A stretch of 64,000 bases of DNA, from contig JAULBX010021409.1 in the NCBI GenBank assembly GCA_032358255.1, forward strand, positions 1 to 64,000, in the 5' to 3' direction. The notes under the pieces are model-generated. The model saw only the letters and a program-made list of their open reading frames with translations, did no database searches and was not told the DNA's origin. The DNA comes from Heterotrichella gracilis. Lineage: Eukaryota; Sar; Xanthophyceae; Tribonematales; Xanthonemataceae. The position numbers and the translations under genes are program-made. Numbering within the stretch: position 1 is the first letter of the stretch; every line of letters begins with the position of its first letter. Shown one piece after another: positions 1 to 64,000 of the stretch.

Positions 1-770
1 TAGCCAGTATTCAGCCACTGCCGACAGCACTTATAAGTGCACTAATTAGCAAAAACTAGGTGATGCCCTCAAGAATGAATTAAGTGCTTGAAAACAGTAC
101 CCCCACGCTTCACCACCCGGTATGCATGGTAAAATGATGGGCACGTATAAAAAGACAACTAAATTATTAGTGGTAAAAATGCATTTATGAACAAGACAAT
201 AATTTAGGATGCAACCAACATTCACAGCGTGAAAATGTACAAGTGAACTAATGGGTTATAAGAGCTCTTGTGCACAGTAAATAAAAAGCACAGGTGGCAT
301 AGTGCGCACGGGTTATATGTATAGTAGCTGAATAGCAAGCTATAATATTGATATCTGTGCAAATATCTGTGTTCAAAACGACAACTCATTCAACTTCAAC
401 AAAAAAAATCACAAAAAATCACTGTGCGCATGTGCAGACGTGTAGCTGCAGACAAAAAAGAATGCTCCGTTGCACGTACCAACACTGGCAGTAACATGCT
501 GGAAGGTGGTCAAACATGGACATGCTGCAGCTGGTCTGAAACAGTTGGTGGCTGCATGATCCTCCATAGGTCCACGACACGTGTATAAGCTGTCGCTGCT
601 GTGGCTGACTGCTGCATGCGCAGGTGCACTATATGATCCTCCTTTAAACCTTGCATTGCTGAGTTGGTTGTGCTTACGCCAGTGCACTTGGCTCCTCGCA
701 CTGGTGTGGTCGATTTGGTCGGTTGGTGTTGTTAATTTGCTTAGTAATTACTTATTTCATTTCCTATGGC
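1..770. other. Left-edge stretch without a recognisable gene
   Basis: AT-rich relative to the rest of the window, with no open frame that looks coding and no exon-like pattern I could connect to a downstream gene. It may belong to an intron or the upstream region of the plus-strand leucine-rich-repeat-like gene that ends at 1598. Confidence 0.5.
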
Positions 771-947
771 TGCCCAGGTGCCCATACTCGAGCTGCAGCA
801 CAACCTGCGCCTGTTGATCTGCATCATATTATTAATTTTATTTTTATTTACTATTTTATTACTTATTGCGTGAATTCATTTCGTATTGCTGCCCCAGGTG
901 CCCATGCCGGAGCTGCAGCACAACCTGCGCCTGCTGGTCGACCTCCA
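771..947 (+). repeat. Two stray copies of the TFIP11 intron 4/exon 5 junction
   Basis: Positions 771-822 and 891-947 each carry an acceptor-like CCCAGGTGCCCAT followed by sequence encoding the start of TFIP11 exon 5 (PELQHNLRLL). The second copy differs from the real exon (42109-42168) at only a few positions, and the AT-rich sequence before it also resembles TFIP11 intron 4. Two decayed copies of the same junction lie in TFIP11 itself at about 41950-42060. The left-edge copies have no further TFIP11 exons downstream, so they are fragments and not a second gene. Confidence 0.8.
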
Positions 948-972
948 AGTTGGTACCACCCGGGGCCCCAAG

Positions 973-2644: not shown

Positions 2645-5600
2645 TCAACCCCCCACCGCCAGGTAGTAGCACCGCTCCGCACTGGACAGCATGATGGGCT
2701 GGGTAACCCACCCCCGCACAGACATGGCGCGCATCAGCCCCCCAACCTCGCCCACCGCCCGCCGCCGGGACGAATCCAGCAGCTCCCGACAGGTCGCGCC
2801 GGACATCCCGGGCTTGATTCCGCCGTCAGAACTTCCCGGTTCAATCCTACTACTGGGACTCTCGGGTCCGCTCCTCCCAGAACTGGAAGGCCCTGGACCA
2901 TATCTGGCACAAGAAACCTGGGATCCATTCCCGGTGCTGGGATCCCTGGGAACGGTCTCGGTGCTGCGCGGCGGATGCGGCTGCAGCATGTCCCGCAAGA
3001 ATGCGGCCTGTAGAACGGCGGTGAGGATGTCCTTCGGGCGCGCATCGCCCCGCAGCGCCACTGAGATGTGCGCCTGGGAGGAGCGGTACAGGGGGAGGAA
3101 GGGGAGGATGCGCCGCCGGCGGGCGGGCGGCTGGTAGCCAAGGATGTAGCGCTCGTTCCTGTGGGGGGGTACGGGGATTCAAGGGGGCGTGCGCTCACAT
3201 GCATGAGCAAGGAAAGGGGGTTTCCTTGATTGCAGGGCTGGGCATGAAGTACGGCACAAAGCAAGGCTTGAAGCATGGTCGAGCGCTGCTAAGGGCACCA
3301 AATGCCTAAAATATGAGCGACACTGGATTCAGGAATTAGGCATATCGTGGCATTATGTACACCAGTCAGTGCAAACAACTCTCTTCCCTGCACACAACCC
3401 CCGTCCCCCTACACATGTACCCTTCAAATCCCCCGTCAGCTCCTGCATGTGACGCAATGCATCCCCTCCCTTTTCCCCCACCCACCTGTACACTCGCATG
3501 AGTTGGTCCAGCTGCTCCGGCCCGCTCACAAATGTGTCCAGTGATGTGATAGTTAAAGGCACCTGGCCGCGGCTGAGGGCGGGTGGGAGCAGGTAGCGCT
3601 CCATGGCGCTCACCTACAGAGGGTTTGGTAGTGTTTAGGAGTGCTGTGAGGGTTTCAAGGAGGGTTTTGTTGCTCAGGGTGTGAGGCCCAAGGTGCCGCT
3701 CCAAGGAGAGGCGGGTGGCAGCGGTTCAATGTTCAAGCGTGTGTGTAAAAGAAGATCCCAATCCGCAAATACGCATCTCATCTGGTGGCGCCACACCTGA
3801 AAACCTACACAATAGCTACCCGTACCTCCTCCGCCCCAGGCACATGTCCGTCCTGGGTCCACGCCTCGGCGATGATCTCTGCCCGCTCCCGGTTCACGCT
3901 GCGCAGGTGGATGGACCTGAGCTCCCGGTAGATGGAGTACAGGTCGCCTGGGGATTGGAAAAAAACAGGCTGGGGTGAGAAACATGGTAAAAAACCCTGG
4001 TCCATGCGGTGTGCGTCATGAGCCTACGTGGGCTCCTTGTGTGTTTACGCTCGTTGCAAACATCCTGGCGCTAGCTACATCATTTCCACCCAACAGCTTC
4101 ACAAATCGAACCGGCAATAAGTTAAGTTCGTCATGTGACCAGGCACGCTGGCCGGCATGTAGGTGCGCCATGATGCCCAGGGCAGGCACAAAGCAATGTG
4201 TGCATCTGACCGCCCCCGGCTACCAAGGACCATGTGCTTTGGCCCTGCTGCATACCGCCGCTGGCCAGGAGAGGCGCAAGGCCGCATTCGCAGGGCTATA
4301 CGTGCATCCCCAGATGCTTTAAATGCAACCCTAGGGCTAGGTGTGTATCCCTGCCTCGGGCTTTTGTTCCAACACAGTCCAATGGAAATCAATTTGCGGA
4401 CAGTCCTGTGCACTCCCCACCGCCCACCTCCCACATGCGCTGTACACCATGCATCCCCCCACCCTTCCATCACCACCCACATCCCATCAGCATGGGCATC
4501 GCCACCCTGTGCCTCATGCACCCTCCATCCTCCAACCCCCCCCCCGTTACAGCCCCATCCCCTCACCTGCAATTAGTATGGGCAGCGCCACCAGCGGCAG
4601 CGCAGCCCTGTGCGCCGCGCTGTGCCTGCATGCGTGCGTGAGCGCTACCGCTGTGGCCAAGCCCACGTTGTCAACCACCATCTGCTGGGCCTGCGGGGGT
4701 GGAGTGAGGGGTGTACATGCGGCTGATGTGCGCGCACAAACATGGCCAGCAATTCTCTGTCCCATGGCAGTGCCGCGCATGTGCAGTTGGCTAATGGTCT
4801 GCTCCAGCTGTGTTTAATTCAATCCCCGGTCCAGATGCGCTGGTCCCCATGCCACATGCATTCACCACGCCATCCCACACCACCAACTCCCAATTTGCCA
4901 GCTGTTTCACAACCACCAGAGGGCCTACGCATCAACATATACCCCATGCGACCCCCCTCCCTTCACTTCCCACTTGCACCCTCCATCCCACCCGCCCTAC
5001 CTGCGATTTTGCCGAGATGTCCGCCAGATTCTCCCCCTTGGCGAAGTTTTTGTGGAAGGCAGGCTGCGTGGCTATGTGTGTGGTGAGACCGATGGACTTG
5101 CCCATGTTTGCCACCGAGGCCATGGCCAGGAAGTGTTGCGGGAACAGGGGGGTGAGGTACTCCAGGCAGAGGGCCACAGCATACACAAGGGAGGTGGTGA
5201 AGCGGAAGCGCTGCAGGGGAGGGGAGAGGTGGGTGGTGAGTGTCGGGGTTTTGTGACAATGGGGTGCAACAACGTGGCGCGGATGGTGGAATGGGTATGT
5301 GCATTCCCATGTTCCTGTGCGTGCGCGCGCAAGCCAACATACTGGCCAAATCCTAGCCTAGCCAAAACCCTACCTTGAGGTCTGAGTCGAAAGACTGCCC
5401 CTAGCTATTGCCTGCTAAACCCTTACTGGAAATCCCTTGCCAAACCCTAGCCAAAACCCTACCTTGAGGTCCGAGTCAAACGACTGGCCAAAGCGCGTGG
5501 CCACCGTTAACCTTCCAAGCCTGCCCAGTCCATCCTTGAGCACCCAGTTGATGACGGCAGCAGTGGGCAGCGAGCGCCGCGCACCCACCCCCACCGCCGT

Positions 5601-7151
5601 CAGAAGGGACTGCGGGTGGTGGTGGGAAGGCGGTTGGTGGTGTGCGGGTGGGTACCAGTGGTGGTGGCAGCATGGGCGTGCGGGGCGTGACGCATAGGGA
5701 TGTTGTCGGAGGGAAGACAGTACACCACTGTGACATAGCCTAGGTCCTCTTCAACCAAATGAAGGTCCCAAGTCGATGCAATTTACCCATTTCAATGGAC
5801 GCTGCACGCAAGTCAACCTCCTGCGGGCCCTTGTGGCCATTGACCCATTTCATTACAGAGTAGGCGTATGGTTTTTGGGCAGCTCATTGGGAAGCGGTCT
5901 AGGGGAGCACCCAGGGCCACATGGGCTGCTCTCGTTACTAAGGACCTGCAGGCTAGGCACATTCAAAAATGGTACAAACAGTGCCAGGACAGGACTGAGT
6001 GGCGCATGCTTGTGCAAGGTTGATTGCTGATCTGGCTTTTGTGGCTGGTATGCGTGTAATAATAATAATAATAATTACAGAGTGATCTCAGATGACTCCA
6101 TGCACATATATTCGGGGCGCGTACCTGTGTTGCAAAGATGCTGGAGATGGAGCTGAAGAACCTGTGGCTGGCCCGCCACTTGGCATAGTTCCAGTAGTCG
6201 GCAGTCACGTCCTTAGGGTTGGGCAGGAACGCAGAGAGCAGGTCCTTTTTCAGGCGCTTCACCCTGGCCTGGAAGTTGAAGAGGCTGGTGTTGGAGCCAT
6301 TACCCTCCAGGCTCTCAGGGTGCACAGCCAGGATGCGCTGCCCGTCCCACACAAACCGCTTCTGGTGCTCGCCTGCATTGAGGGGTTAATGATTAAGGTA
6401 GTTTGCTGTGGCTCCTGTAGGGTTTGGGAGGGGGTGGACGGTGGGTGGTTGTGCACGCGCTTGTCCCAGCGTGTGTAAGTTTAAGGGGAAGTTGAACAGG
6501 CTGGTGTGTGACATACTACCCTCCAGGCTCCCCGGGTGCACCGCTAGTATGCGCTATTCATCCCACACAAACAGCCTCTGGTGTCATATGTGGGTTCCAA
6601 AGGCAGGGACGTGACACTCCCTGACAGGCAACTTTACAAAGCAGATCCCCAGCTATGTATGTGGGCGGGTCCCGGGAGCCACGGGGCTAAGTGGGTCACT
6701 TGCTGAGGTTGTATGCCGGCGGCAACGTGGAGTAGGATGGGTGCAGGGTTGTGTGATTCAGCAGTGACTGTACCTTGTCGTAGGGTGTAGGGAAGCACTG
6801 TCAGCTCCCCTTGCCCCTCCTGTGAAAACACACACATGTGCATTTGGGCGAAGGCCTTTGACGCAAGTCAAACACAGGGATGTTGCTTTATAGCAAGTGC
6901 AAAAGAAACGGGTGCAGCGAGGCAATATTTCGGCGCGGATACGGCTGACAGGGCCCTACCTTGAGCATGTTGTGGTGCCCGCTGCACGCATGGTTGACCG
7001 AAATGGACCCTAATCGGCTGCTTGGGCGTCTGCGGCGAGGTGGAATTGGGCTGAAGAACTGGTTGACGTTATCGGAGAACTCAAAGCTGTACGTGTCATT
7101 GGTTCGAGGGCGCTCAGCAGCAGCATTGCTGCGGCGTTGTTTGCGGAGCAT
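2645..7151 (-). CDS. Root UVB sensitive (RUS/DUF647) family protein
   Basis: Nine exons join in phase into 576 codons: 7151-6960, 6819-6774, 6372-6125, 5609-5463, 5210-5001, 4690-4567, 3947-3826, 3613-3486, 3158-2645. RUS proteins are conserved in plants, algae and animals; in plants they are linked to UV-B sensitivity, vitamin B6 metabolism and auxin transport, with no settled biochemical activity. The core matches DUF647: AFLPNPKDVTADYW at the domain start, then ATQSLLTAVGVG across the exon 3/4 border, NWVLKDGLGRLG, SVANMGKSIG and NLADISAKSQ. The C-terminal GWVTQPIMLS motif also fits the family. An upstream in-frame GTG at 7181 is not used as start; the ATG at 7149-7151 gives a basic N-terminus (LRKQRRS) that may be a targeting peptide. 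A Pro/Ser/Gly-rich insert of about 60 residues sits before the C-terminal motif. Confidence 0.9.
5371..5400 (-). repeat. Echo of RUS exon 4 edge
   Basis: The sequence across the exon 4 donor (5455-5490) recurs about 90 bp downstream in the intron with a handful of substitutions, including the TACCTTGAGGT donor context. Confidence 0.7.
6490..6583 (-). repeat. Echo of RUS exon 3 in intron 2
   Basis: About 90 bp resemble exon 3 positions 6274-6365 (the segment coding for DGQRILAVHPESLEG) in direct orientation, with enough changes and small gaps to break the frame. It lies just upstream of the true exon in the transcript. Confidence 0.75.
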
Positions 7152-9773: not shown

Positions 9774-12700
9774 CTAAAAAGGAGGAAGGGAATGCCCACA
9801 AGGGGACACACCAGGTACAACACACTGTGTTTTGGATGCACTACTTAATGGCCGCACCTTGTCTTCTAAATGCTGCCTGTGCGCACGGATGAACTCCAGT
9901 GTCTCATCAAGCGTCTCGGGGAACACCTGGAGCAAAATAAGATGTCCATAACTAGACCCTATTCGAAAATAAATTACCGTAATTTTCCAATAAAAGATGA
10001 ACACCTTATAGAATATGTAAGGGGGGGAAATACAGTCCATTCATGTGGAGAGGTGTTTTTTTTTAATCCTTTCTTTCTCCCAGAAAATAGGATATACCAG
10101 AGGCCTCATCTGAATAAGTACCCTGGGGTTGGCTAAGCAGCAGCGCATTTTCGGAGAGACCCTCCTACCGTGTGCTTACCTTGAGCACCTGGCGGTTTGT
10201 GACGAATGTGATGGTGCAGTCGTTGGTGATGTCCTGGGAGCCGTTGGGAGGCTGGGCGCTGGCATCAGTGGCCGTGGCGCATTTTCGGGCCTGCACGTTT
10301 ACCCGGATAAGCGGCCCATCCACATACACCACCTGCACAAAGGAATTAACTTTAAAAGGGAAAACTGGGCAGGAAACATCTTAGCACAGCCCATGTTGCA
10401 GCAAAGTTTGTGGTCCACGTTAACGACTATGGTGAACATCTGGTGAAGTACTGAGCGTTCCCGCAGCATAATATATATGTATGGAAAAGGATATGAAGGA
10501 TATAAAGGATATACAGGGGGCATTGCAGATGCCGCCACATCTCCAAACCCAGGATCATATAGCAGCAAACCACACAGCATCCAGTAGCAACACCACCATA
10601 CCCACCACCACACCCACCCCGGCCACCCACCTGCGCCCTAAACTGCATGATGCTGCCGATTGGCACAGGCTTGAGGAAGGCAATGTCGCTCATGGACACA
10701 GCCTCAACCTGAAGAAGTGGCACCAGCGATCGTACAATATGGACATGGATTTGCTTGGAAATTAACGTGAAAAGATAGCAATACAATTTATGGAAAACAT
10801 ATATCAGTGTTCATATGATGGTGGAAGATGCTGCCCATGGACACAGCTCCTGCGGGAAATGAAAAGTGACAAAACAGATGTGAACGGATGCCGTATTAAG
10901 TTTATCACAGCGCTGCAAGGGACTAGCCACCTCGTTACCCACCTGTGGCCCCGCGTGCAGCGCGGCAGTGCTGTATGCCAGCTCAAAGGCCTCGCGCATG
11001 AGGTGCCCCCCAAATATCCTTCCCATGCGGTTGCGGTCCTGCTGGTGCATGAGCAGCAGGGAGCTCTGCATGGTTTCACGCATGGGCCGGTAGGTGGAGT
11101 CGCCTGCAGGTGGAGGAAAACAGGGTAAAATGTGCTAGGATCAACCAGTATGTCCAAAAACAGCCCAACAGATGACATCCCCTGACACAGTCACACGGCT
11201 ATCCGACATGGCTTATGTGAAGTCACGTCACTTATTTTCTTTTCAGTCTCATCTTGTAATATCGCTTATTGTGTTTCATTTTTAAACTACAATAGACCCC
11301 CTATTCCCACCTTGCCGCGGCCTGTCCCTCAGCAGCGTGTACAGCCACTCCATCTCGCCAGCGGTGGGCGGCTGAGAGGACAGCGACTGGCTGCGCTTCC
11401 ACTCGCGCACCCGCTTGTTGCGCGCACCCTCCTCAAAAAGCAGCTCCTCCTTGGGCGTCCCGGGGACCAGGCGGTTCACTCGGGCAGCCCGGGATTGGAG
11501 CATATCGCGCGCAACCTGTGGGGGCAGGGGCTGGGAATTTTCACACCAGGGATTGTGTCGGTGTTAATGGTTGTCCTGGGTTGAGAAACCATGCTTTGGT
11601 GCGACCCAGGATTGGAGCAAATCGCGCGCAACCTGAGGGGGTGAGGATGTGGAAAATCCAAAACCAGGGATTGTGCTGGTGATGACAACTCTGTTACTGG
11701 TTGCAAGCCCTTATTTATATGTTTTCTGATTTCTTAAATATAACAGTTTATGTAGGCTGGCGTTTGTTTTGCAGTGCATCGTGCACAACCTGCTAGGGGC
11801 AGTTGTGGTGATTTTGGGCCTGGGCCCAGTCGCTGTGGGTTGAGGATTTGGGGGTTGGGTCCGCACCATGACAAACCGCGCCAGTCCGATGAAGTCCCAG
11901 TGGCTTGATGGCGCCTGCCGCGTTCGCGCCTCAAGCAGCACCTGTGGCAGAGGGTGTAGGGATGAGCAGCAGGGTTTGGCAGTAGGGTTTAGGGTTAAGG
12001 ATGTATGCGCCCCGAGCAACAAATGCAAAGGGCGTTACGGATTTACTGACCTCCACTGACGACGAGCCCACCCACGACACCTGCCCCACCAGCTGCAAGT
12101 CGTTGGTCAGCTTGAAGCTACCTGCAAAACGGGAAGTATAGGGTTTAGGGTTTACATAGTAGAGGTCAGTAAAACCCTGTTCCGAGCCCTGCCCTGGTCA
12201 TTGGTCAGCCTAAAGCTGCCTAGCGCCAATAAGGACCCTAAAACCCTAAACCCTAAGGGGGAGTCAAGGTTCATGTGCCATGACAGATGGCAGCCACACG
12301 TGGCGGAGCCGCTGGCAAGATATAGGGACAGGTATAGACCATTCAGCTGCAGATCGTTGGCCAAGTGCAGCAATACACCTGATTCGACGAAATATGCAAA
12401 AAAAAATTAAGTAAAATTCCTTCACATATTTTACGTAAACAAAATTTTAAAACGTAAATTACGCCGCCATCCCAACCATGGGTCCATCCGGATGGTGCAC
12501 AGCTGCACTCTGTTCCCACTTCACCTTCTGCCGCCTGAACCAGTTGAGCCGTTCCACACGTCCCCTCATCAGCTGAAAATAAGTTAGTTACACTACATTT
12601 CCATTTCTCCACGCACCTTCTGCCGCCTTGAACCAATTTAGCCGGTCCACACTAGCAGTCACCAGGCTGAGGTCGGGCCGCCCGGTGTGCCTGAATGCGA

Positions 12701-51800: not shown

Positions 51801-53542
51801 TCCTCAACCCTAAAATGTACAGGCAGGGGGTCCACCAATGCATCGCACATCCACATGGTTGACTTCTCAGAAAAGCAACCTCAAACAATGACGTGGAGTG
51901 TTATTTCATGCCCATGTGCCCTGGCTATCCCCCCTCCCACACCCCACCCCCACCCACCTGGTTGCCAATGCCACCACTGTGTGGAAATCCTGGGGGTCCA
52001 AATAGTCGCACCAGGGCTCCGGCACATTTGGGTTCATTGCGCGCACCTCGAAAAGCACCACCCGGCACGCAATCATGTCGTGCGTGGCAATGTACACCTG
52101 CGGCGGCGGGTGTTTAGGGTTTTCAGTAGGTATTTTAGTAGGACTGTCAATAGCATTAACAGAAGAACAAAATGCAAAAAAGGGAATCAAACATGCATGG
52201 CAACCACCACCTGCAAGGGGGAAGTGCAGCAGGGGGGGGGGTTGTAGGAAGGGGACAAGGGGATCACTATTGTTCAAGTATTGTGGAGAAAGGAGCAGAT
52301 TGAGCAAGGGTCTGCTCCAAATCCCTACTCAAAACCCTGCCCAGCATGATGACAGCAGCTTGCCCCACAACGCCTTAATCCTGCACAAAAACCCTACCCC
52401 AAAATCCTACCTCAAAACCTACCTTGCACCCCAGCATGGCCAGCACGATTGCCGCTGCCCGCCCCACCCCCGCCTCCCCCCCCGTCACCAGGCAGTGCTT
52501 GCCAGCCATGTCTGTTCGATCCCCGTAGCGCACGTAGTCGGCAGCTGAACCAATGCCTACCATCTGCTGGTACCGGTCTGCAAGGCGGGGATAAGGGTAG
52601 ATAGGGGTGGGAAGTGCCAGGGGGGTAAAGTGGTCATGCGTTTGATTCTAAGGCTATCACATTTGCCTTCCTTAAGCAGGCAAATTATAGATGTCTGTTC
52701 GCTCCCCATACCCAAAAATAGTCCGCAGCTGAACCGATGCCTACCATCTGTTGGTACCTGTCTGCAAGGTGGGATGGGGGGTGAAGGCAGGTTGCGTGCT
52801 AGGGTTTAAGGTAGTTGAGTGCTAGGGTGCTAGGGTTGTGTTGATGCTAGCAGCAATCATCTTCTATTATCATTTCCTTTTTGAAGTCCTGCATTTACTG
52901 TTATATAACTGTCCGTTCCACGTACAACACATAGTCGGCGGCTGAGCCAATGCCTACCAGCTGCTGGTACCGGTCTGCAAAGCGGGGGTAAGGGTAAGGG
53001 TACATAGGGGGTAGGAAGTGCACGGGGTTGAAATTGGCTTGTGTTGATTCTACAGCCATCACTTTCGTTGAAAATGTGAGCCTAGAATAGACAAGAAATA
53101 TATATATGCTGTCTGTACTGCATCGCACATAGTCGGCGGCAGAGCCAATGCCTAGCAGCTGCTAGTATCGGTCTACAAAGAGGGCATAGTAGAGTGGATT
53201 TTCCATGGGACATGGGCATGGGAGGTGGCAGGGATTAAGGTGTAGGGTAATTGTGTGGTAGTGCAGCAAACTGGATTCATGCAAGGGTTTTGTGAGGAGA
53301 AAAAACACAACAACGATATTGTAACAGGGTAAACGTGCAACAGGGACATCATTTCCCATCAACGCTCAACGCTTTGTGTGATTTATTTGGTCAGGTTTAG
53401 GCTGTAAGGATGCTGCTTCAGGGTTTACCTTTCCTGCCCTCTGTCGCATCATAGTCCTGCAGTGCCGCCATCAGGCGCCGCAGTCCAGAGGGGCAGGCCA
53501 GGGTGTCGGCACTGGCGGGGCCCATTTGCCGGGGGGGCTCAT
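48844..53542 (-). CDS. Short-chain dehydrogenase/reductase-like (possibly the C-terminal half of an FAD-oxidase fusion)
   Basis: Eight exons join in phase: 53542-53429, 52577-52423, 52097-51958, 51500-51232, 50879-50434, 50192-49796, 49521-49337, 49068-48844. A Rossmann start is clear: AGKHCLVTGGEAGVGRAAAI with TGxxxGxG, then RLDVVILASAF, then LASNYLSRVLFLTQLI. The C-terminus (VFLATRQNPQ, AYQSCRQLAPS and DDPALAYDTWQAAIGLT) resembles WWOX/retinol-dehydrogenase-type SDRs. The active site looks degenerate: the usual Ser is replaced in RVILLTTPW, and the YxxxK motif reads YVASL. Long Gly/Pro/Thr-rich inserts interrupt the fold. The first exon begins with a phase-1 join to the exon ending at 53887, so it may continue the FAD-oxidase frame; alternatively this is a separate gene with an in-frame Met in exon 53542-53429. 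The stop at 48844-48846 could also be a donor site. Confidence 0.72.
49620..49738 (-). repeat. 120-bp echo of an SDR exon end
   Basis: Copies 49790-49912 (donor edge of the exon ending at 49796, coding for VREMVRREAILEQRLNVTLG), with the run GCACCATCTCCC and ACCAGTCACAGCC conserved. It is the longest single echo noted. Confidence 0.88.
52690..53176 (-). repeat. Three echoes of the SDR exon at 52423-52577
   Basis: About 52694-52770, 52917-52990 and 53123-53176 repeat the acceptor end of the exon (coding for DRYQQMVGIGSAADYV), each with the TAGTCGGC/TGGTACC core and a candidate acceptor. Similarity falls with distance from the exon in part, and flanking intron sequence (GGGGTAAGGGTA) is copied too. 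Confidence 0.88.
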
Positions 53543-53886
53543 CTACAGGGGAGAAAATAAAATGCAAAACAGTAAATGAGGTTGAAGTGGGAAATGGGTG
53601 GAATAAATGATGTTGAAGTGGGTTTGGGTACTTATAGGCCATGCCATGCGTGCGCTGCCTCGCTATTGATACCCTCAGGGTAGCTTCACCATTCAATGGG
53701 ATTAAGAGGGGTGCAAATGGCCCTATCTCTAAGATGAAATTGAGGTGGGATTTGGTAGTCTCAGCCCACGCCATGCATGCACAGCTGGACAGCATCCCAA
53801 TTGACTGATGAGTCACGGCAAATTCGAATGGAGAATGAAATCACAAGGGGTGTAGATGGGTCTATCCCCTCCCCTGTCTTACGTAC

Positions 53887-56800
53887 CTTCCCCTTCCTCC
53901 CCCTCATCCCCTCCACTGCCATCCTCTACTTGCTCCCCCCTCCCCCTGCCAGCCCCAGGTGACACCCCCTGCATCTTGATTCCACCTTCCTCCCCTGGAA
54001 GTACCCCCCCTGCTCCGCTGGTTCCCTCCCCTGACTGACCCCCCCACAGCGCATGCATACCAAACCCCTGGCTCACCACACCACCCAGGCTGCCCAACAA
54101 CCCCCCATTCGTCCGAGCCCCTACCGCCCTCCCCACCCCACCGCCAGGCGGCACACCCCCCATTCCCCCCTCCTCCCCGCCCCCTTCCTCATCCCCCCCG
54201 GGCGCCATATGCCCCCTCCGCCCCCCCGAAAACTGCCGCTTGAAATCCGTCGCGGTATTGAACATCTCGTGGCCCCCTATGGAGTCCCGTAATTGCCCCA
54301 ATTTGGCGTGCATTTCGTCGTCCATTAATGCCACCTGCCACCCCGCGGTGACTGCTGATAATTGGGCCCCGCTGGTGTGTGCCCCGGGCATGTAGGGTCT
54401 GAGGCGCATGTACAACCCTAGGGCCCAGCGGGAAACCCCGTCGAGGGTTGCTTCCCGGCCTTGGGTGCCCAGGCCTGCGGGGGGGGATGTAGGGTTCAGG
54501 GTTTGAGAGACCAACAGGGGCACAGGAACAGGGCTGTGAAAATACCCCACTTAATGAATGAATCACACAATAAATAGCTTCCCCAAAAAATAACATCCCA
54601 TCTTTGCACCTGCCAACAGGAGGACTTTAATACATCACGTGATATATTAAAGTCCTCCTGCTGCCAACGCCAACATGACGTCTGGGATTGCACCATAATG
54701 CAATTTCCCCCACACACCCACACACACCCAAAAAAAACTCTTTTCGCACCTGTAAGCGGCTGCATGATCCCCGATTGGATGCTAATATAATGCCGGGATT
54801 CCTGCATGATCCCCGCAGCAGATTTTGACCCCGCACCCCCCACCAGCGCAGCACCCCCCACCGGTGAAAGCACAAGCCAGGTGTCGGCCCGCAGGCCCTC
54901 GGAGGGGGGCAGGGGGGGTTTGCCGGTGAAGAAGGCATCTGTTAAAGTGATCGAGGCTTGGCCTGCCAGACGGCTGAGCAGGGCTGTGTGGGTGAAGAGG
55001 TCCTGGGGATCGGTGTCATGTGACCTGGGAAATTTGGGGATTTTTGGGGTGTCAAAATTGGCCCGGGCAGCGAGAATTCAGGGTATAAAGTGGCAATTAG
55101 GGTCTCCCAGTGAAGAAGGCATCCGTGAGGTTTGGGATTGAAAAGGGGTTTAGGAGTGGGAGAAGAGACGCGAGAGTCAGGGCCTGAATGCAAAGGGAAC
55201 AGAGAGAAAGACAGAGCTTTTCAGAGTCAATGCGGGAACCAGCCACAGGAGGTACCAGGGCAGAAGACAGGAGATGGAAGGCAGGGAGGACAAGGAAGGC
55301 GCAAAGAAAGCGACCATGCTTGCAAACCCCAACAAGTGCTGCGATTTCCTCCCCTCTTACCGTAGCCAGGACCCATATGTGTGCCCCCTGAGGAACGGCA
55401 CCCCATCCTGCATTAGCCCCCCCTGGATTTGGACCTGCATTTCTGGACCCCCTGAGCAGCTGTCTGGCATGGGGCAGGCGGTGTCGGAGTCAATGAAGTC
55501 AGCCAGCATCTGTGGGGAGGGAGACTGTGGTTTACGGTTTGGGGGTTTTGGGTTTAGCTAAAACCCTAGACACAATTAGTCTGCTGTGTGCAGCCGCACA
55601 TTAGACGCAATCTACAGACATCTCTCCCCGCAGATGCTAAATCCTAATCCCTGACTCTCAACACCGGAAAATGCGAGTTTCTGCAAGCCCCACCAACACC
55701 CTAACCAAGACCCTACCAAAACCCCAAGGTGCCAATATAGCCCGCACAAGCCCTACCAAAACCCTCAAGGGGTACCCTAAACCCACCGCCAGCAGTAGCC
55801 GCACCAGGTCCATTCCCTCCCTCCCGGCCTGCCGTAAACCTAACAAAACCCTAGGGTACCCCAGACTCACCGCCAGCAGCGGTCGCGCCAGCTCCATACC
55901 CTCCCTCCCCCTGCCGTCATACATGAGCGACAGGCATGCCTGGCACCCCCCACCCAGGGGCATGCGCAGGCCAGAGCTGCCGCCCCAGGGGTAGCGCGTA
56001 TTCACCTGTGCAATGTGGAAGCGCTGTCAATTCACATGTATTGGCGATGACATTTTACGTTTTATGTTACATGCTGCCTACGAAAGGATGCACCCACCAG
56101 CGGTGGCCTCGTATGGTGCGTTGTCCAGCCCATGCCCCTGGGTGTGTGGGGTATGCGAGTGTGGGGATGGACCCCTGGGGATGCAGCAAAAACACGCAGG
56201 GGCATGTGCATAACCTAAATTCCATACAGAGTCCTCACCTCCCCCGGGGAAACCCTAGCCTGGGGCATCCTCCTCGCCAGTGTCAGCTGCATCGCCATCC
56301 TGGGGGTCGACTTGAGCTGGTGGGCCCACGCCTTGTAGAGCTTGAGAAACCGAGCCAGCTTATCTTGGGATGAGGCTATGAAGCACGCGGTCCCCGCGAA
56401 AAGCGCCGGCGGCACCTGGAAAGCCCTTAGGGTCATGTGGGTGATCACGCCCAGACCGTGGCCACCTGCAGGGACAAGGGAAACCCTAATGAAAACCCTG
56501 ATGATAACCCTAGGGTCAAGCCTCAGGTTCATGTGGGTGGTGACGCTTACGCTGTGGCCACCTGCAGGGACAAGGGAAACTTTTGTGAAAACCCCAATGA
56601 GACCCTAGGGTGTACTTAGGGTCACCCACAGGGACCCCCACCCACATGAACCTGAGGCTTGACCCTAGGGTTAAACCCTTAGGGTCAAGTGCATGATGAC
56701 ACCCTGGTGGCCACCGGGCCAAGGGGGCAATCCTGATGGGAACCCTGATGGGAATCTTGATGAAACCCTAGAGAAACCCTTCAAGCCCTTGGGGTCATGT

Positions 56801-59012
56801 GGATGATGACATCATCAAACCCCGCATCAAACCCCGCCCACATCCCACATCCCGCATCAAACCCAGCCAACCGGCCAATGGCCCACCTGTGACCTGTGAC
56901 CTCGACCACCCAGAACAGGAACGCCTGCCCTAAAACCCTACCCTAATCTGCAATAAACCCCAACCCAATTCCTGCATCCAACTCTTACCTGTGGCCTTGA
57001 CCGCCCAGAAAATATCCGATCGCTCCTGATCGCTCGCGGTGACCGCCGATCCATCCGCCAGCACCATATTCACGGACATGAGGCTGGAGGTGGCCAGGCC
57101 CCGGTGCCGGGACTGCCAACCCATGCCCAGGGACTGGAAAAATCCAACCAGGGTCCCCTGCAGGATACACGATTTCCTTGTTTTTGGGTTCTTTCGCTGG
57201 CTTTTCCATGCAACCCTTCAGTACAGCACCCCCACCCAATCCAGCTCCAACCGGATCACAAACACAGCATATACAGTTTTCTTCTACGGCGTCCTGCTGC
57301 TGCCTTTTACGGTTTCTGTTAGGTTTCCATGTACATATCTTACAAGGTTTGTTAGAGGTTTCCTTGCCACTCACCGACAGCGGCCCCGCATACACCACCC
57401 CCACCCTCCCCAGCTCCAGCCCATTGAGCACATCCTGCAGGGTGGCGCCCCCCTCCACCTCCACCACCCCGCCACCCCCCTCGCTCCCATTGGCCGTCAC
57501 TCGCACCCCAGCCATGCGCGCTAGGTCCAGCATCACGCTGTTGTGCACGTGGAGCAATCCCGAGGGGCCATGGCCCCCGCCCTTGACCGTCACCTGCAGC
57601 GTGGGGTGGTATCTTTGGTGTTTTGAAGATTACCTTATAGGCATACCAGAGATGTAGCGGTTATGATGGTAGGGTTTTTGGGTAGGACTTTGGTGGACCT
57701 ATGCGCGCAAGATCCAACATGACGCTGTTGTGCACGTGCAGCAGACCTGAAGTGGAGCCTGAACCCCCTCGCAAAGTCCAGCACAGCCTCAACGGACCCT
57801 TCCACACACACACACACACACCTCACTTTCACCACCACCACCACCGGCATCACCACCACCATCAACCCCACCACCCACCTTAAGACCATATTCCCTTGCC
57901 AAGTCCAAGGCAGCAGCAATGTCCTCGCCCCCCCGCGCCTGCACAACCACCGCAGGCCATGCCGCTATGCGTGTGTTGAAACCCGCAGTAGCCTCATCCC
58001 ATTCCAACCGGTGAGGGGTGTCGGGGCACAACACCCGGCCTGGCATGGGTGGGGGTTGGGGTGGGTGGCGGGGTTGGGGGACGGGAGGGATGCGAGGATG
58101 CAGGGGCGAGGGTTGTATGGTGGGGTTTGGCAAGCCACAGCAGGCGCTGAGCAATGTGTTGGTGGTGGTGACGGGGGTGGGGATTGGGATGGATCCATGG
58201 AGGTGTGGGGTTGTTGGCGGGCAAGGTGGCAAGGGTTTCTAGGCAGATGGCGTGGAGTGGAATACCGGTGGGGATGGGGATGCAATGGAACGCTAATTCA
58301 TGCGGTCTGATCTTTGGGCCTGCCTTACCCTGGAACCTCTCCTGAAGGGTTGTGGCCGCCCCACAGGGCCCAGACCCTGGGTTAGGGTTTTCGTGCGGCA
58401 CCCTGCCATCCCACCATTGGTGCCGCGTGCCAACTGCAGCAGCAGCAGTAAGCATGTTGAGGTTACAGTAGGGTCTTCAGGGTACCAGGTTAAAGGGTTT
58501 TCAGTGGCCAGTGCACCCGAGTGGCGCTTGTGTCCTAGGTAGTGGGGTAGGCAACATTAATGAGTTTCCTTCCTGACTAGGCTGCCATTGCAAGGACTGC
58601 TTAACGCTCATGCCAGTGCAGTGCCACTACCGTATATGAGGTTGGCGGTTCCAGAATGCCCACAAGCGAGAGGTCCGTGTATATTAGGCGGAAAGGTGCA
58701 AGACAAGGTTGGGTCCGCCTGAAGTCTAAAGACGCGCACGTTGCCGTAAACGTTGTGTGTGTTTGCATCTGCAGTTGCAGCGTCGCGTGCATCCCATAGG
58801 GTCCATACTGGAACCCCCCCGTGTGCCCATCCAAATGCATGCATAAAACCCGTGTGCACACCCACATGCATGCATATACGGATCGCAGGACCCCCTCCGC
58901 CCTTACCAGACGACGACAGCCTCTGCGCCAAGCTGTACAGAATCACTGTCACGCTGGCGAAGGTGACTAGGGTAGTCAGCCGCTCCCTGGTCCGCCTCCC
59001 CCCACGCCTCAT
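53887..59012 (-). CDS. FAD-linked oxidase, berberine-bridge/PCMH type
   Basis: Ten exons join in phase: 59012-58907, 58433-58329, 58039-57879, 57593-57375, 57157-56989, 56465-56239, 56005-55871, 55509-55361, 55024-54750, 54474-53887. Start ATG 59010-59012 follows an in-frame TAG; residues about 10-28 (LTTLVTFASVTVILYSLA) form a signal anchor. The FAD domain is seen in FNTRIAAWPAVVVQARGG, VKGGGHGPSGL (the His of this motif is an FAD attachment site in the family), GLATSSLMSVNMVLADG and FWAVKATG joined to GHGLGVITHMTL. The second cysteine attachment site was not recognised. The last exon ends in a Gly/Glu-rich low-complexity tail. If the donor at 53886 is not used, the frame stops a few codons later (TAA near 53879); if used, it joins the SDR exons in phase and makes one 1354-aa protein. 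Confidence 0.78.
54617..54660. repeat. Perfect 16-bp inverted repeat in an intron
   Basis: Arms 54617-54632 and 54645-54660 (CAGGAGGACTTTAATA and its reverse complement) flank a 12-nt loop that itself contains CACGTG. It sits in the intron between the last two FAD-oxidase exons. Confidence 0.85.
55085..55845 (-). repeat. Echoes of two FAD-oxidase exons
   Basis: Positions 55085-55125 repeat part of exon 9 (GTGAAGAAGGCATC). Positions 55787-55845 repeat the donor edge of exon 7 (55866-55920, coding for GMELARPLLA). Both are direct copies in flanking introns. Confidence 0.75.
56517..56815 (-). repeat. Three echoes of FAD-oxidase exon 6 start
   Basis: About 56517-56582, 56681-56730 and 56785-56810 copy the acceptor edge of exon 6 (56427-56475, coding for GHGLGVITHMTLRA), with the flank GGCCACCTGCAGGGACAAGG intact in the nearest copy. 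Decay increases with distance from the exon. Confidence 0.88.
57697..57751 (-). repeat. Echo of FAD-oxidase exon 4 start
   Basis: Copies 57510-57565 (coding for HVHNSVMLDLARMAG) in the intron just upstream, with CTGTTGTGCACGTG conserved. A (CA)n/(CAC)n tract at about 57808-57880 follows. Confidence 0.8.
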
Positions 59013-59528: not shown

Positions 59529-61063
59529 ATGCATGCATACACTCCCACACATGCATGCATGCGCACCACTCACCCTTGCCCAACCACCACCGCCTCTCCA
59601 CGCGCACGCCTTTCACCCACCAACACACCCATATGTTCCACCCACAGCCACCGCCCACATTTCCTCGCCAACCCCACCGCCCACCGCCCCCAGCAACGGC
59701 ACCCCATGGCAGGCCGTGCATCCACATCACAACCGCCACCATCGCCACCGCCAGCCACCGCCGCCCTGACGGAGGAAGAGAGGGAGCTTTTGTCACGTGC
59801 AAAGGCGAAACTCCCTACCCGTGATCAGCAGCTGGCGTTGCTCCGGCAGGCAAGGGGGGGAAGACCCGATGGGGGAGATGTCATAGGTTCGATGCTTGCA
59901 CTGGAGGAGGCCGCTGGTGCAGACAAGGCCACAGCAGGTAGGAACCCTAGGGTTTGGTAGGGGTTTTGTTATGCCACCCTGGTGGTCGTATGTTCTATGC
60001 TGGCGCTGGAGGAGGAGGCTGGTGCAGACAAGGCTTCGGCAGGTACGCACCCTAGGGTTTGGGCAGGGTTACTTATGCTAGCCAGGAGGTCATACTTTCT
60101 ATCATAATGCTGGCGCTGGAGGGTGCAGAAAAGGCTTCGGCAGGTACGTACCCTAGGGTTTGAGGGGGTTTTGTGGCCACCCTGGAGGTTACATGCCTGA
60201 GCCTGTAGCCCGCGCCGGCCTCTGCTCCACACCGTTATGCACCCTCAGGATGGTGCAAATTGGCTTTGCACCACTGGAGCAACCAGCAAGCCATGCAAAC
60301 CTTTGGCGCGGGTATGGATGGCACCGCTGGCGCCTGGTGTTCTCCAGTGCCACTCCCGTCAACCGACAGGATTATAAGCTCCATTTTGTGTAATATAGAT
60401 GTGTTTTAAATACAACTCGTTGGTGCAGGACGTTCTCCAACGCCACCCCCATCAAGCAGCTGTACTGCAAAAAAAACATCATTTAATTCCATACACACTC
60501 CCGGCGCAGGCGTGGATGGCACCTAGCGCCTGGTGTTGTCCAATACTGACCCATCAAACCCAGATGTTTGCACAAAAACCACTTCAACGTATAATCGTAC
60601 CCAATGTTGCAGGCTTGGATGGCACTGGCGCCTGGTCTTCCCCATTGCCACCCCCCAAAAGCAGCTGCATTGCATTAAAAGTCAGCTTGCAAATAATTTT
60701 GACACCCTTGGTGCAGGCGTGGACGGCACCTGGCGCCTGACATTCTCCAATGCCACCCCCATCAAGCAGCTGTACTACATCCCAGTCAACGAGCTCGCCA
60801 TCGTGGATTCAGCCCAGGGGAGCATAATAATACAGACAGACGTGGGCCCCTTCCAGCCGAAATTCACTGGGAAATGCCGCTGGGATGCAGCGTCCAGCAC
60901 CCTGGATTTCTCCTTCCAGCGCATCACTGTTTCGGCTTTTGGGAGGCAGATTTGGAGCAAGGATGTGGACACCAGTCCGAAGACCTACTCCTTTTTCCAC
61001 CTTGACGAGGGCATGGGGTGCGCGCGCAGCAGCGGCAAGGGGGTGACGCTCATGTTCAGGTAG
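59529..61063 (+). CDS. Plastid lipid-associated (PAP/fibrillin)-like protein
   Basis: Two exons join in phase: 59529-59937 and 60717-61063, giving 251 aa, or 192 aa if the second in-frame ATG at 59706 is used. PAP/fibrillin proteins are plastid lipocalin-like proteins of plastoglobules and thylakoids. Residues about 1-60 are rich in Thr, Ser, Pro, His and Arg and nearly free of acids, as in a transit peptide. A helix EEERELLSRAKAKLPTRD follows, then the domain: GVDGTWRLTFSNAT, FTGKCRWDAASSTLDFSFQRI and the C-terminal KGVTLMFR. The 'DGTWRL' start and the closing 'RGxGxxLW/MFR'-like end fit the PAP pattern, but overall similarity is judged by eye. The single intron is packed with copies of both of its flanking exon edges. 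Confidence 0.68.
59985..60716 (+). repeat. Intron built of six exon-edge echoes
   Basis: After the donor, 59990-60046 and 60083-60155 copy the exon 1 end (MLALEEAAGADKATAG, donor and the CCCTAGGGTTTG flank). Then about 60300-60385, 60418-60470, 60508-60560 and 60609-60675 copy the exon 2 start (GVDGTWRLTFSNATPIKQLY). Nearly the whole 779-bp intron is explained by these copies. Several keep GT or AG splice dinucleotides in the right place, but each has frame-breaking changes. Confidence 0.92.
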
Positions 61064-61930
61064 AAAAAGGGGAAGAGGGGAGGGTGGGCGGGGGGGGGTG
61101 CGCTTCGATGCCGTCCAACAAGGGACGTGCCTTCATGGAAATTGAGAGATTTGTGCTGGCTCAAAATCCAGATAGGGAGGGGGCAGAATTGGTGCAAAAG
61201 AGGCGTGTACATTATGGCTGTGGAGGTTATTGTCCAAAAGCTATGCAAACATTTGATGAAATTACAAGGTGTTAATGAGGGGGTTCCATTGCGCGTTTTG
61301 TTACAAGCATGTGACAGTGTGAAACGCGTAGAGTGCCTATTTGTTGAGGTCAGGGTTACAAAGGGCTGGCGAATTTTGGCTCCAAAGTGGGACTGTATTA
61401 CATTGAATGTGTGTTAGGTAGTGTGGGGGCAATTTTGTGTCTTTCTTCTTTCTATGTATAGGCGAGCTAGCAGGTTTTGAGGCTGGTACAATTGACGCAG
61501 TTGATGAGAAAGGGCTGATATGAGTCTCAGATATATAGTGAGAGAAGGTTGGTAGTATGATTTTTACTTTTTCTAAGGGCGCACGCATCGCCAGCTCTTT
61601 TATTTTATTTCAAGAACCTGTTTTTTCCCCTCATAGTATAGAGTCCATACAATAGCAACCGTTATGGTTGATACCTGTTGTGGTTGATAAGTTGTAGCTG
61701 CTGAAGTACATTACAGTCCCATTGCAACCAAGACTCTCGACAAGAGCCATACCCAGCACTTGGGTTTGTCATTCAGTTGCCATGTTAAATATTTTTTACA
61801 TTCGCATTAAATATCCCCATTTCCAACCGCGCCTTATGCTGGTGTGGCCTGCATGCCTGCAACAGTAGCATGTGCAGGCGATATGTCATTCCATGCATGC
61901 AGTTGTGGGTGACCAAATTTCTGGAGCACA
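61064..61930. other. Convergent spacer downstream of the fibrillin-like gene
   Basis: No coding pattern. It holds the poly(A) element listed next and otherwise nothing recognised. Confidence 0.5.
61796..61800 (-). terminator. UGUAA poly(A) element for the right-edge gene
   Basis: TGTAA on the minus strand 131 nt past the stop at 61931. Use inferred from position. Confidence 0.4.
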
Positions 61931-64000
61931 CTACACTGAATCCTCCCCGTGTTCACTGTCTTCCCCCTCCTCCCCTTCCTCCCCCTCCCCGTTGCTGTCA
62001 CTCCCCTCGTCCACCCTACTCTGACCTCCTTGTCCCCCCTCCTCGTACCCTTCCTCCCCCTCATTCTCACCCCCTTGCCCCCCTTCCCGTAAATGCACAT
62101 CTCGGTACCTCCCCTGCGAGCTGTACCCCACTCCCTGGGGATCCGACCGCCCATCTCCAGTCCCAGAATGCTCCTCTTCCCCCCCTGATACCCCTGGTGC
62201 CTCCCCGTTCTCTGAATCGCTGCCTTCCTTCTCCCCTGACCCCCCTGATTCCTCCCCGTTGAGCATGGTTTCTGCGTACTCCACCTGGGAGAGGAGCTCC
62301 GACAGGCTGCCAAGGGGTGCGTGGCAATTCCCCCTGCAAATCAAAAATAGAGTTAACATTAATTTATATGTTAGTTTATGCAGGCGGTGATTAGGTAGTA
62401 GAATAGCTTTGACATAAGACGCAGGCTGCCGAGGTGTGTGGCGATTGGCCCAAGGCTGCCAAGGAGTCGCAAAACAGTCGGCCCGGAACGTACACAACCC
62501 TACCCCATACACCAATCCACACCCAGTCGACAACAATCCCTGCCCCGTGAACAAGGCAGCTCTTACCCCATATCAAAACCTTTCCTAGCCTACCTAGCAT
62601 CCCCCCCCCCCCTTGTTCCATGGCTTGTTCAATGATCTCCCTCATGTTGCTTGACACCCAAGCAATCCCCATTCCTTCACCAGCCAACCCCCCACCCACT
62701 ATGCCCCATTTCCTGACCTACCTGGCATCTCCACCGCCTTGCTCCATGGCCTGCTCAATGATCTCCCTCAGATTGCTCAGAGCTCGAGCCGCCACCTGGC
62801 CGCATGCCTCAGCCACCTCCGGTGCCATCTCGCTGAGTGCTGAGCACACATGTGCGCACATGGGGGCCTGGGGCGGGGGGGAGGGGGGTTGAGGAGGGGA
62901 GGGTGCGCTTGGGGGGTGTTTATAGGGTTGTGTGCATGTGGGATCTATATACAAGTGGGGCGGTGCACACTCCGGCCTTTTGCAGTGCAGATTTTGCACC
63001 CACAACCGCCTTCTTGCCCACTCCTTCCCCCCACCCCTTCATACTCACCACCAGCTTGGCGTCCATTGGCCCACTCATATTCTCCAGCACGTGCTCCGAC
63101 CAACCACCAAGCAGCTGCCACCAGGAGGGCATGCAGGCATCGTCCAGCGGTTCCTGGCTGTGTGGGTCAGAGGGGTTTGCTCCTGGCCCATCCATCAGCC
63201 GGCCCAGCGCGTGTGTGTAGCTGGCACCCGGGCCTGATAGAAAGGCCCCTATTTCCTATTGCATGGGAGGGGCGAGGTTACGGCGCAGCAAGGGGTTTTC
63301 TAGGGTCGAAGATGCAAGTCGTCGTGATGCAAGGCATCTCACCATGACTAAGTAGTTACCTTATATGCATAGGTTATTCTCCTGGGGCTAAAGCTGACAT
63401 TTCAAAACACAAAGTTGACGCTGTACATTCCCCTTGCCAGATTAATCTGGCTGTATACTGAATTGCATAAAATTAACTAACCGACTTACCGGAATATTTG
63501 CCAACGCCACCACTGCGCTCCATCCCAGGGATCGAGGCCCCCTGTCCACCACATGCAGCATGGCCAGCTGGAGCGCCTCGGAGGAGTGGATGGACTGGCC
63601 GCCCAGGGGGTCAAGAGCACAGGCCTGGAACAGGGGTTAACAATTCAATTAATTCATTCAAGCAGACTTAACGTTCAATTAGTTTGGCTAGTTAGCAAAC
63701 AAGAAGATCGCACAAGTCATTAAGACTAAATGTGCCGCTGTGTGATGTAAAATACTGACAGCCACAGTGCCATGCAGAGGCGAGGCGTACTGATTTGCAT
63801 TGTCACGCCTCTGCAGCACTGCAGATTAGGGGTGATGCTGCTTGGCGGGATCGCAAGTATTTGACATGTGCATTGACCGCACAAGAACAGGAACAGAATT
63901 TCACAAGGGCGGCAGCGCCAAACCCATCCCTGGGGCTCCTTGATCACCCACCTCAATGAGCCGCAGGGCCGCCTCCGCAGTCGCCCAGGTGGGGACGGGC
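61931..64000 (-). CDS. 3' part of an unidentified helical-repeat-like protein (cut by the window edge)
   Basis: Five exons join in phase: 64000-63952 (partial), 63624-63490, 63255-63049, 62867-62722 and 62333-61931. The visible protein starts TWATAEAALRLIEACALDPLGG and SLGWSAVVALANIP, then PSWWQLLGGWSEHVLENMSG and ALSNLREIIEQAMEQGG. The amphipathic helices with Trp and Leu look like HEAT/ARM repeats, as in importin-beta or exportin proteins, but I cannot name the family. The last exon ends with about 100 residues rich in Glu, Gly, Ser and Asp, an acidic disordered tail. The exon at 63255-63049 was chosen with acceptor CAATAG because it gives EIGAFLSGPGASYTH in phase. Confidence 0.7.
62603..62655 (-). 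repeat. Echo of the right-edge gene's penultimate exon
   Basis: Copies 62735-62780 (coding for LREIIEQAMEQGG) in the following intron, with CAATGATCTCCCTCA conserved. Confidence 0.8.
63765..63821. repeat. Imperfect inverted repeat
   Basis: Arms 63765-63782 and 63806-63821 pair with one 2-nt bulge around a 23-nt loop. The arm sequence GCAGAGGC resembles the palindrome at 33807-33842 and may belong to the same foldback family. Confidence 0.6.

Follow-up and report, generated by a model that had tools for sequence, protein, structure and literature searches.

Local direct copies of exon edges within introns of a 64-kb stretch of the Heterotrichella gracilis genome

Background

Several described systems bear on the subject of this report, the direct copies of exon edges that lie within introns of a 64,000-nt stretch of DNA from the xanthophyte alga Heterotrichella gracilis (assembly GCA_032358255.1, contig JAULBX010021409.1, positions 1 to 64,000; hereafter the window). 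Where telomeric repeats are inserted at breaks, a target duplication accompanies them at 4/25 loci in primates, 6/130 in rodents and 3/66 in the horse (PMC2246262, PMC7215372). Those insertions are short tracts that sometimes bring a direct flank duplication from a staggered break, and the tracts of the window may be of this kind. In mammals, however, duplication is the minority outcome and the share of human insertions that lies in introns is that of chance (PMC2246262, PMC7215372), whereas the tracts of the window cluster at intron starts and tend to accompany exon-edge duplication. Fill-in of staggered breaks by Pol alpha-primase, guided by the telomere complex CST, generates small tandem duplications (PMC8355091). 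These resemble the present copies in being direct and tens of bases long, and the present copies may likewise derive from staggered ends through a telomere complex; they differ in that they were obtained in mouse and human cells from Cas9-made nicks and have no tie to exon edges or introns.

Other precedents concern the origin of introns. In the potato RdRp gene, a tandem duplication crossing an intron-exon boundary made an intron (PMC4974935). As in the window, the duplication is short and direct, spans the boundary and carries the splice signals along. The potato case, in contrast, is one new intron in one gene, while the 64 kb studied here contain 30 edges at which introns already present became longer, mostly with filler between the copies and with no opposite splice site abutting them. 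A model for intron gain during staggered break repair in Daphnia has the staggered break, end joining and direct repeats at the insert in common with the mechanism proposed below, but there short repeats flank entire new introns (PMC3443670), whereas copies of 30-160 bases lie within introns of the window. Introners likewise change intron content on a mass scale; they are dispersed copies of one element (PMC9860276), unlike the local copies of the window, which differ from locus to locus. For relatives of Chlamydomonas, introns without the usual peak at short lengths are reported, with a driver that is given as unknown and probably old, and break repair is named as a possibly underappreciated force (PMC8226300).

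Literature searches, in which subscription journals were thinly covered, yielded no description of an edge-targeted mode of intron growth, although its separate steps are known. The subject bears on what sets intron length and on how introns lengthen. Because the exon copy is conserved, the inserted pieces are recognisable and can be dated by an internal clock. The codon clock, the excess of edges over a fair null, the accounting of intron length and the link to telomere-like sequence go beyond the claims of the initial annotation of this DNA.

Exon-edge copies in introns

Local same-strand copies of exon edges (here also called echoes) are plentiful in the introns of the window. The hand-checked set comprises 39 copies of 30 edges, 17 donor and 13 acceptor, and all 39 are in direct orientation (Table 1). 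Aligned lengths range from 29 to 159 bases and the offsets between source and copy from 78 to 595. Echoes are present in 10 of 11 gene models and in 27 of 77 introns. The initial annotation had described at least 40 such copies of both donor and acceptor edges, always in the same orientation. Its count was fair, given the 39 hand-checked copies and more just under the cut, and its statements on edges and orientation hold. It had further described introns built from such copies in nearly every multi-exon gene; echoes do occur in 10 of the 11 gene models, but this wording is overstated, as introns in which an echo is found in 27 of 77 cases are not mainly made of copies. Assembly collapse, raised there as a doubt, is improbable given the 3-29% divergence of the aligned pieces.

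The basis throughout is this single 64-kb window, which is gap-free with a G+C content of ~55%, and home-made gene models. A gene finder was built and trained on the window and its output then curated by hand. Exons with a score of ~10 or more were kept, together with a small number of lower-scoring ones consistent with the gene. Predicted exons lying in echoes were taken out, and two splice sites, donor 17384/17385 and acceptor 40799, were placed manually. The curated set has 11 genes with 77 introns, of which 76 entered the edge-window comparison (one exon was added later). Exon G+C is 64% (vs 53%). Among nine proteins of an earlier model version, Pfam families found were UVB_sens_prot (RUS), 4HBT, DnaJ and FAD_binding_4, EF-hand and Na_Ca_ex in the NCL protein, thioredoxin and class-V aminotransferase in one protein, and TIP_N, G-patch and GCFC in TFIP11. 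Together with the TTTAGGG-type motifs, these genes would suggest a green alga. Some gene labels of the initial annotation did not fare as well: the "fibrillin-like" protein and the right-edge one have no match in Pfam, and the short-chain dehydrogenase (SDR) match scores below the cut-off. Scans of the window for tRNAs and Rfam families gave no matches.

A self-comparison of the window (E ≤1e-3) gave 56 direct matches, 50 of them less than 500 bases apart, and six inverted matches, five of which are single palindromes. Among pairs at most 1.5 kb apart with a score of at least 36, 71 are direct and 3 inverted; five local dinucleotide shuffles gave no such pair each. Mapped onto the junctions, most pairs consist of an exon edge and its adjacent intron, and the remainder is chiefly copy-to-copy. 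At a score of 34, 19/76 windows at donors and 10/76 at acceptors have a copy in their own intron (reverse-complement control, 1/76 each), compared with 8/128 exon-interior windows and 2/91 intergenic windows, for which the reverse complement likewise gave 2/91. Intron-interior windows matched in 26/215 cases before masking of echo families and, in a set of overlapping windows, in 19/423 cases afterwards; these 19 fall at seven sites, of which some still belong to echo families. Fisher values for edges against the masked intron interior are 7e-8 (donors) and 0.002 (acceptors), approximate only because windows overlap. The abundance claimed initially is borne out by these comparisons.

All pairs below a score of 40 were left out of the count of 39 copies; those scoring 30-39 include further likely edge copies as well as weak intron-only pairs. 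Pairs of the ATGCC microsatellite and pairs between copies were likewise left out, as were the ectopic copies at 756-939, the pair 55752-55917 and pairs at 15184-15533, which lie outside modelled introns. Within counted families, the pieces omitted are 25428-25485, 26332-26375, 44688-44790, 56783-56810, 60122-60189, 60305-60346/60503-60542, 60315-60357/60616-60655 and 60506-60675.

Divergence of source and copy

The mismatches between source and copy show that the exon copy stays under selection while the intronic copy decays neutrally, as had been proposed initially. Over the 39 copies, exon mismatches amount to 68/648 (10.5%) at codon position 1, 69/646 (10.7%) at position 2 and 148/645 (22.9%) at position 3 (p = 7e-13 for the difference between positions). 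Position 3 exceeds positions 1+2 by a factor of 2.16 (bootstrap 1.80-2.68). In the intron flank more than 6 nt from the junction, 117/604 bases differ, a ratio to positions 1+2 of 1.82 (confidence interval 1.49-2.27). These values come close to those expected where a selected exon is paired with a copy that is free to change, because positions 1 and 2 change in the copy only and position 3 and the flanks in both. The codon pattern further shows the sources to be coding exons that are read in the frame of the models.

Alternative or mutually exclusive exons were rejected as an identity of the copies, which carry no coding constraint (10.5%, 10.7% and 22.9% at the three positions). Donor offsets are divisible by three in 9 of 21 cases, about chance. 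All 19 donor copies that extend over the splice dinucleotide keep it unchanged, as do 10 of the 13 at acceptors, a count that is biased by alignment ends and is not evidence; one of the 19 donor copies reads GG, the modelled junction being off by one base.

The initial annotation had also stated that copies decay with distance from the edge. This is not clearly seen in the 39 copies (Spearman 0.22, p = 0.19), and in several of the seven multi-copy families a farther copy matches the identity of the nearer one or exceeds it.

Placement of the copies

The substrate of the duplications is exon borders rather than genes at large, because intron-only events are few and young copies have a low intron fraction. 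Tolerated duplications were simulated as uniform over introns and edges, with similar decay and an identical rule for detection. Of the pairs then detected, 50-60% are intron-only, a share that is low if anything, since the simulated ages were taken from whole exon-part divergence, which overstates age. The corresponding expectation of 41 intron-only events rests on the same overstated ages. Observed were 3 of 42 events under a strict definition (p = 3e-9 vs one half), or 8 of 47 when every doubtful case is included (p = 3e-6). Among young simulated pairs, an intron fraction of ≤0.25 occurs in 20-26% of cases; 10 of the 13 youngest copies have such a fraction (expected ~0.24, p = 9e-5), two of the 10 ending before they reach the junction. 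At most 15 intron bases are included in 14 of 21 donor copies, and acceptor copies include from 0 to 93.

Among the few intron-only duplications is the intronic tandem array at 50321-50425, with 2.6 units of 40 bases. An ATGCC/TGCCA microsatellite region lies at 12884-13158 in an intron of the 4HBT gene.

Spacers and intron length

Past the intron-side end, source and copy have no homology over the next 60 bases in 35 of 39 cases (score 24, a level reached by 0.6% of 726 unrelated pairs). The spacer therefore lies mostly outside the duplicated unit, and most events have the form edge, new spacer, edge, while a few may be plain tandem duplications. A microsatellite or minisatellite array was rejected as a general explanation on the same count; exceptions include 44569-44901 and 59880-60162. 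The initial annotation had left open break repair or replication slippage. Break repair fits better, with unrelated sequence beyond the end of 35/39 copies and telomere-like filler often present in spacers; simple slippage would duplicate the spacer as well.

The median length is 415 for introns with an echo and 270 for those without (p = 1e-5). When copies and spacers are subtracted, the median of echo introns with more than 20 such bases is 250. Copies and spacers together account for 5,663 of 27,439 intron bases (20.6%, with the stretch 52578-53428 taken as intron). These data favour the view, already put forward initially, that local duplication across exon borders lengthened introns: the near-equal length after subtraction argues for growth, although long introns give copies more room, which may account for part of the raw difference.

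Telomere-like tracts

In introns, 274 seven-mers are rotations of CCCTAAA/TTTAGGG, and none of the 19 further rotation classes with this composition exceeds 60 (median over all 20 classes, 31). Telomere-type motifs occur at ~10 per kb in introns vs 1.5 per kb in exons, and 77 matches on both strands lie 8-50 bases past donors. By intron, 17 of 68 have a motif in this interval vs 5 of 68 at 100-142 bases.

At donors, the motif is more frequent where there is an echo: 10 of 17 echo donors have one 8-60 bases past the donor vs 7 of 56 non-echo donors (p = 0.0003), and a motif anywhere in the intron is found in 20/27 introns with any echo vs 19/46 without (p = 0.008). G-runs past the donor, considered as a driver, showed no association (11/17 vs 27/56, p = 0.28). 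The clearest case is the TFIP11 intron 44213-44497, in which the exon edge is followed by a 25-base telomere-like run, the longest found, and then by the edge again. Judged by eye, roughly half of the motif-bearing echo donors have the tract within the duplicated segment and the others have it in the spacer, so it may be a product of the events, a cause or both.

A perfect 36-base inverted pair (56505-56540 and 56638-56673) is located in an echo-bearing intron of the FAD gene and overlaps telomere-like sequence; it is the sole non-palindromic inverted match of the window at E ≤1e-3. The 8-mers AACCCTAG and ACCCTAGG, which are parts of the telomere motif placed head to head, are about threefold over-represented in non-exonic DNA (19 each vs 5.4 and 6.5 expected).

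Proposed mechanism

As the leading explanation, though at somewhat short of even confidence, we infer staggered breaks at exon borders that are filled in and joined with partly telomeric filler. Two nearby nicks on opposite strands would produce a staggered break at an exon-intron border. Fill-in of both protruding ends would leave the segment between the nicks present on either side, and end joining with filler, part of it made by telomerase or the telomere fill-in machinery, would give edge, filler, edge as the product. Such a change would be neutral if one copy still reads as exon with a working splice site. Telomere-like tracts at intron starts may then re-break the same edge and generate serial copies; telomeric tracts are described as unstable (PMC11626172). 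The copies are direct and local duplications of tens of bases, as expected of staggered-break fill-in, and their orientation and short range (offsets of 78-595; 71 direct vs 3 inverted pairs) fit fill-in of one break.

A number of observations weigh against this mechanism. Apart from selection, staggered breaks should be placed independently of gene structure, and the copies are not; random breaks predict 50-60% intron-only duplications, and 3 to 8 events were observed. Seven of the 17 echo donors have no telomere motif, and at acceptors the motif is not associated with an echo (4/12 vs 14/61). Before acceptors, the matches are mostly C-strand CCCTAAA and might represent branch-site signals. 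Of 110 copy ends, 22 have a motif no more than 15 bases away; random positions of the introns concerned lead to an expectation of 16.4 (p = 0.07), and positions matched for both edge and distance to one of 12.2 (p = 0.0035). The telomere-motif test was picked after the tracts had been noticed. Four of the 39 copies have homology that continues past their end and may represent plain tandem duplications. Flank divergence, taken over the 16 copies that have at least 10 flank bases, is 19.9% vs 12.6% at codon positions 1+2, less than twofold.

A wider version of this mechanism appears rather doubtful: edge-targeted intron growth throughout the lineage, in which breaks at splice borders are healed by telomerase- or CST-type synthesis, the telomeric scrap re-breaks the border, and introns lengthen stepwise from their ends, setting the unusually long introns of such algae. 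If the pattern of the window held genome-wide, intron growth would be countable event by event and break repair may be tied to the telomere machinery inside genes; every event would leave a spare splice site, a possible feed for alternative splicing. If telomerase were involved, the filler would match the telomere unit of each species (TTTAGGG vs TTTTAGGG in green algae).

Alternative explanations

A less probable but serious explanation is that break and fill-in duplication occurs chiefly in exon-like, G+C-rich DNA, that duplications within exons are lethal and edge-crossing ones survive, with nothing special about splice sites. This accounts both for the position of the copies at edges and for the rarity of pairs confined to introns, and agrees with the higher G+C of exons. 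Exon-interior windows have no match in their own exon (0/128, score 32), as purifying selection predicts; the lone within-exon pair is of low complexity (61963/62035, score 39, in the last right-edge exon). Against it stand the short intron parts of the youngest copies (10 of 13), from which it follows that copy ends cluster near the splice site, and the telomere motif past echo donors is left without account.

It is improbable that the copying is tied to transcription or splicing, whether an RNA held at the splice site (nascent pre-mRNA or a splicing intermediate) acted as template or the border was cut where an RNA-DNA hybrid had formed. The edge specificity, the strict sense orientation, the 14 of 21 donor copies with at most 15 intron bases and the acceptor copy at 41255, which begins exactly at AG, would all suit such a process. 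The copies, however, contain genomic intron flank, and the donor copies at 42566 and 44261 (read by eye) do not run into the next exon, so spliced RNA was not the template there. Fill-in likewise yields direct orientation, and the telomere tracts would require another cause.

Somewhat less credit still is given to random local duplication along genes, in which edge copies would be conspicuous as the exon copy persists and intron-intron pairs vanish twice as fast. Copies do decay neutrally, intron flanks faster, and some intron-only pairs are present, but the simulation includes this decay and still gives 50-60% intron-only pairs, against 3/42 or 8/47 observed.

Creation of introns by tandem duplication of an AGGT-containing exon segment, whose two AGGT would become the new donor and acceptor, is very unlikely. 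AG/GT is present in many echoes and the potato gene provides a precedent (PMC4974935); this origin predicts a copy abutting the opposite splice site, whereas at least ~90 nt of intron separates each of the 21 donor copies from the curated exon that follows. Insertion of a mobile element or Introner with a long target-site duplication is more unlikely still. The order edge, insert, edge looks like a target duplication, and Introners are reported chiefly from fast-evolving lineages, e.g. green algae (PMC9860276), but no spacer recurs in the window, though one window cannot exclude a locally rare family. Of the five dispersed direct matches (E ≤1e-3), four belong to one TFIP11 edge fragment and one to an intron pair. 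An artefact of the assembly or of the gene models, which are home-made, can practically be dismissed, since the copies diverge, Pfam confirms the main genes and the codon pattern marks the sources as coding.

Feature catalogue and further observations

Table 1 Copies of exon edges and related features in the window. Percentages are identities between source and copy; nt, nucleotides
Feature	Position	Strand	Source and remarks
RUS donor-edge copy	5357..5400	-	source 5446-5489, donor 5463; 91% over 44 nt; telomere-like motifs just past donor
RUS acceptor-side exon-start copy	6487..6583	-	source 6271-6367, 5 nt inside exon; 81%
4HBT/ACOT9-like acceptor-edge copy	11605..11681	-	source 11488-11563; 79%
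4HBT/ACOT9-like donor-edge copy	12522..12559	-	source 12614-12652; 90%
J-domain gene donor-edge copy, weak, G-rich	16833..16902	+	source 16723-16803; 73%
J-domain gene donor-edge copy, two pieces	17495..17600	+	source 17270-17399; 81% and 87%; donor ~17385 hand-set
J-domain gene donor-edge copy	18291..18354	+	source 18114-18176; 83%
NCL donor-edge copy	24933..24976	-	source 25028-25071; 89%; telomere-like tract just upstream in sense
NCL donor-edge copy	25543..25620	-	source 25740-25817; 84%
NCL donor-edge copy 1	26463..26553	-	source 26794-26882; 75%
NCL donor-edge copy 2	26655..26699	-	source 26794-26882; 82%
NCL EF-hand exon donor-edge copy 1	27784..27863	-	source 28165-28244; 88%
NCL EF-hand exon donor-edge copy 2	28006..28052	-	85%
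NCL acceptor-side exon-start copy	28442..28470	-	source 28345-28373; 97%
NCL acceptor-side exon-start copy	29447..29482	-	source 29344-29380; 84%
Thioredoxin/aminotransferase donor-edge copy	34428..34480	-	source 34539-34589; 87%
TFIP11 G-patch exon donor-edge copy 1	40219..40281	+	source 40113-40175; 90%
TFIP11 G-patch exon donor-edge copy 2	40366..40426	+	92%
TFIP11 G-patch exon donor-edge copy 3, weaker	40541-40574	+	score 38
TFIP11 donor-edge copy 1	40976..41036	+	source 40898-40956; 75%
TFIP11 donor-edge copy 2	41059..41121	+	source 40898-40956; 75%; telomere-like run 41106-41119
TFIP11 acceptor-edge copy	41255..41287	+	source 41452-41484; 94%; homology begins at AG
TFIP11 acceptor-edge copy	41951..42004	+	source 42107-42159; 83%
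TFIP11 donor-edge copy	42566..42625	+	source 42379-42438; 92%
TFIP11 acceptor-edge copy	43175..43293	+	source 43346-43478; 73%
Telomere-like filler between copies of TFIP11 edge 44180-44214	44223..44247	+	25-nt CCCTAAA-type run
TFIP11 donor-edge copy	44261..44295	+	source 44180-44214; 94%; homology stops at CAG/GT
TFIP11 acceptor edge, two head-to-tail copies	44569..44790	+	source 44798-44901; 82% matches, about three units of 114
Donor-edge copy, SDR-side gene	49613..49756	-	source 49770-49910; 78% over 144 nt
SDR acceptor-edge copy	51645..51698	-	source 51466-51519; 80%
SDR-gene exon acceptor-edge copy 1	52691..52773	-	source 52508-52589; 84%
SDR-gene exon acceptor-edge copy 2	52909..53065	-	source 52508-52589; 78%
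SDR-gene exon acceptor-edge copy 3	53124..53188	-	source 52508-52589; 82%
FAD gene acceptor-edge copy 1	56521..56611	-	source 56425-56516; 82%
FAD gene acceptor-edge copy 2	56673..56750	-	source 56425-56516; 74%
FAD gene acceptor-edge copy 3, short	56783-56810	-	source 56425-56516; 89% over 28 nt
FAD exon copy, 37 nt inside acceptor edge	57701..57743	-	source 57514-57556; 88%
Donor-edge copy, plus gene at right	59985..60084	+	source 59880-59984; 79%; homology continues, more copies up to 60189
Acceptor-edge copy, plus gene at right	60299..60362	+	source 60704-60765; 78%
Exon-start copy 2, plus gene at right	60421..60469	+	source 60731-60779; 88%
Overlapping further acceptor-edge copies, plus gene at right	60433..60675	+	71-73%
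Right-edge gene donor-edge copy	62581..62651	-	source 62709-62777; 82%
Strict intron-only events	NCL 30506/30644; FAD 53607/53734; SDR array 50321-50425		
Doubtful intron-only cases	30286/30347; 26332/26697; 55752/55839; 4443/4940		also the ATGCC microsatellite

Related sequence of one TFIP11 acceptor edge is also found outside the gene. The ectopic fragment at 756-945, which is 41 kb away from the gene, matches 41945-42162 with 84-95% identity and contains two copies of its own; this is the sole counted edge that is not purely local. The fragment may be a transposed piece or the remnant of a second gene copy. For one TFIP11 piece, searches of viral contigs and genome contigs found no related locus. 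At 55752-55917, an entire short exon (~13 codons) seems to be duplicated with both splice sites.

Palindromes are located at 20003-20083, 23238-23328, 33807-33842, 54611-54666 and 7312-7335, e.g. one of 81 bases at 94%. The RUS intron 5958-6062 and the thioredoxin/aminotransferase intron 37554-37656 have 105 bases in common (72%), possibly a dispersed intron element.

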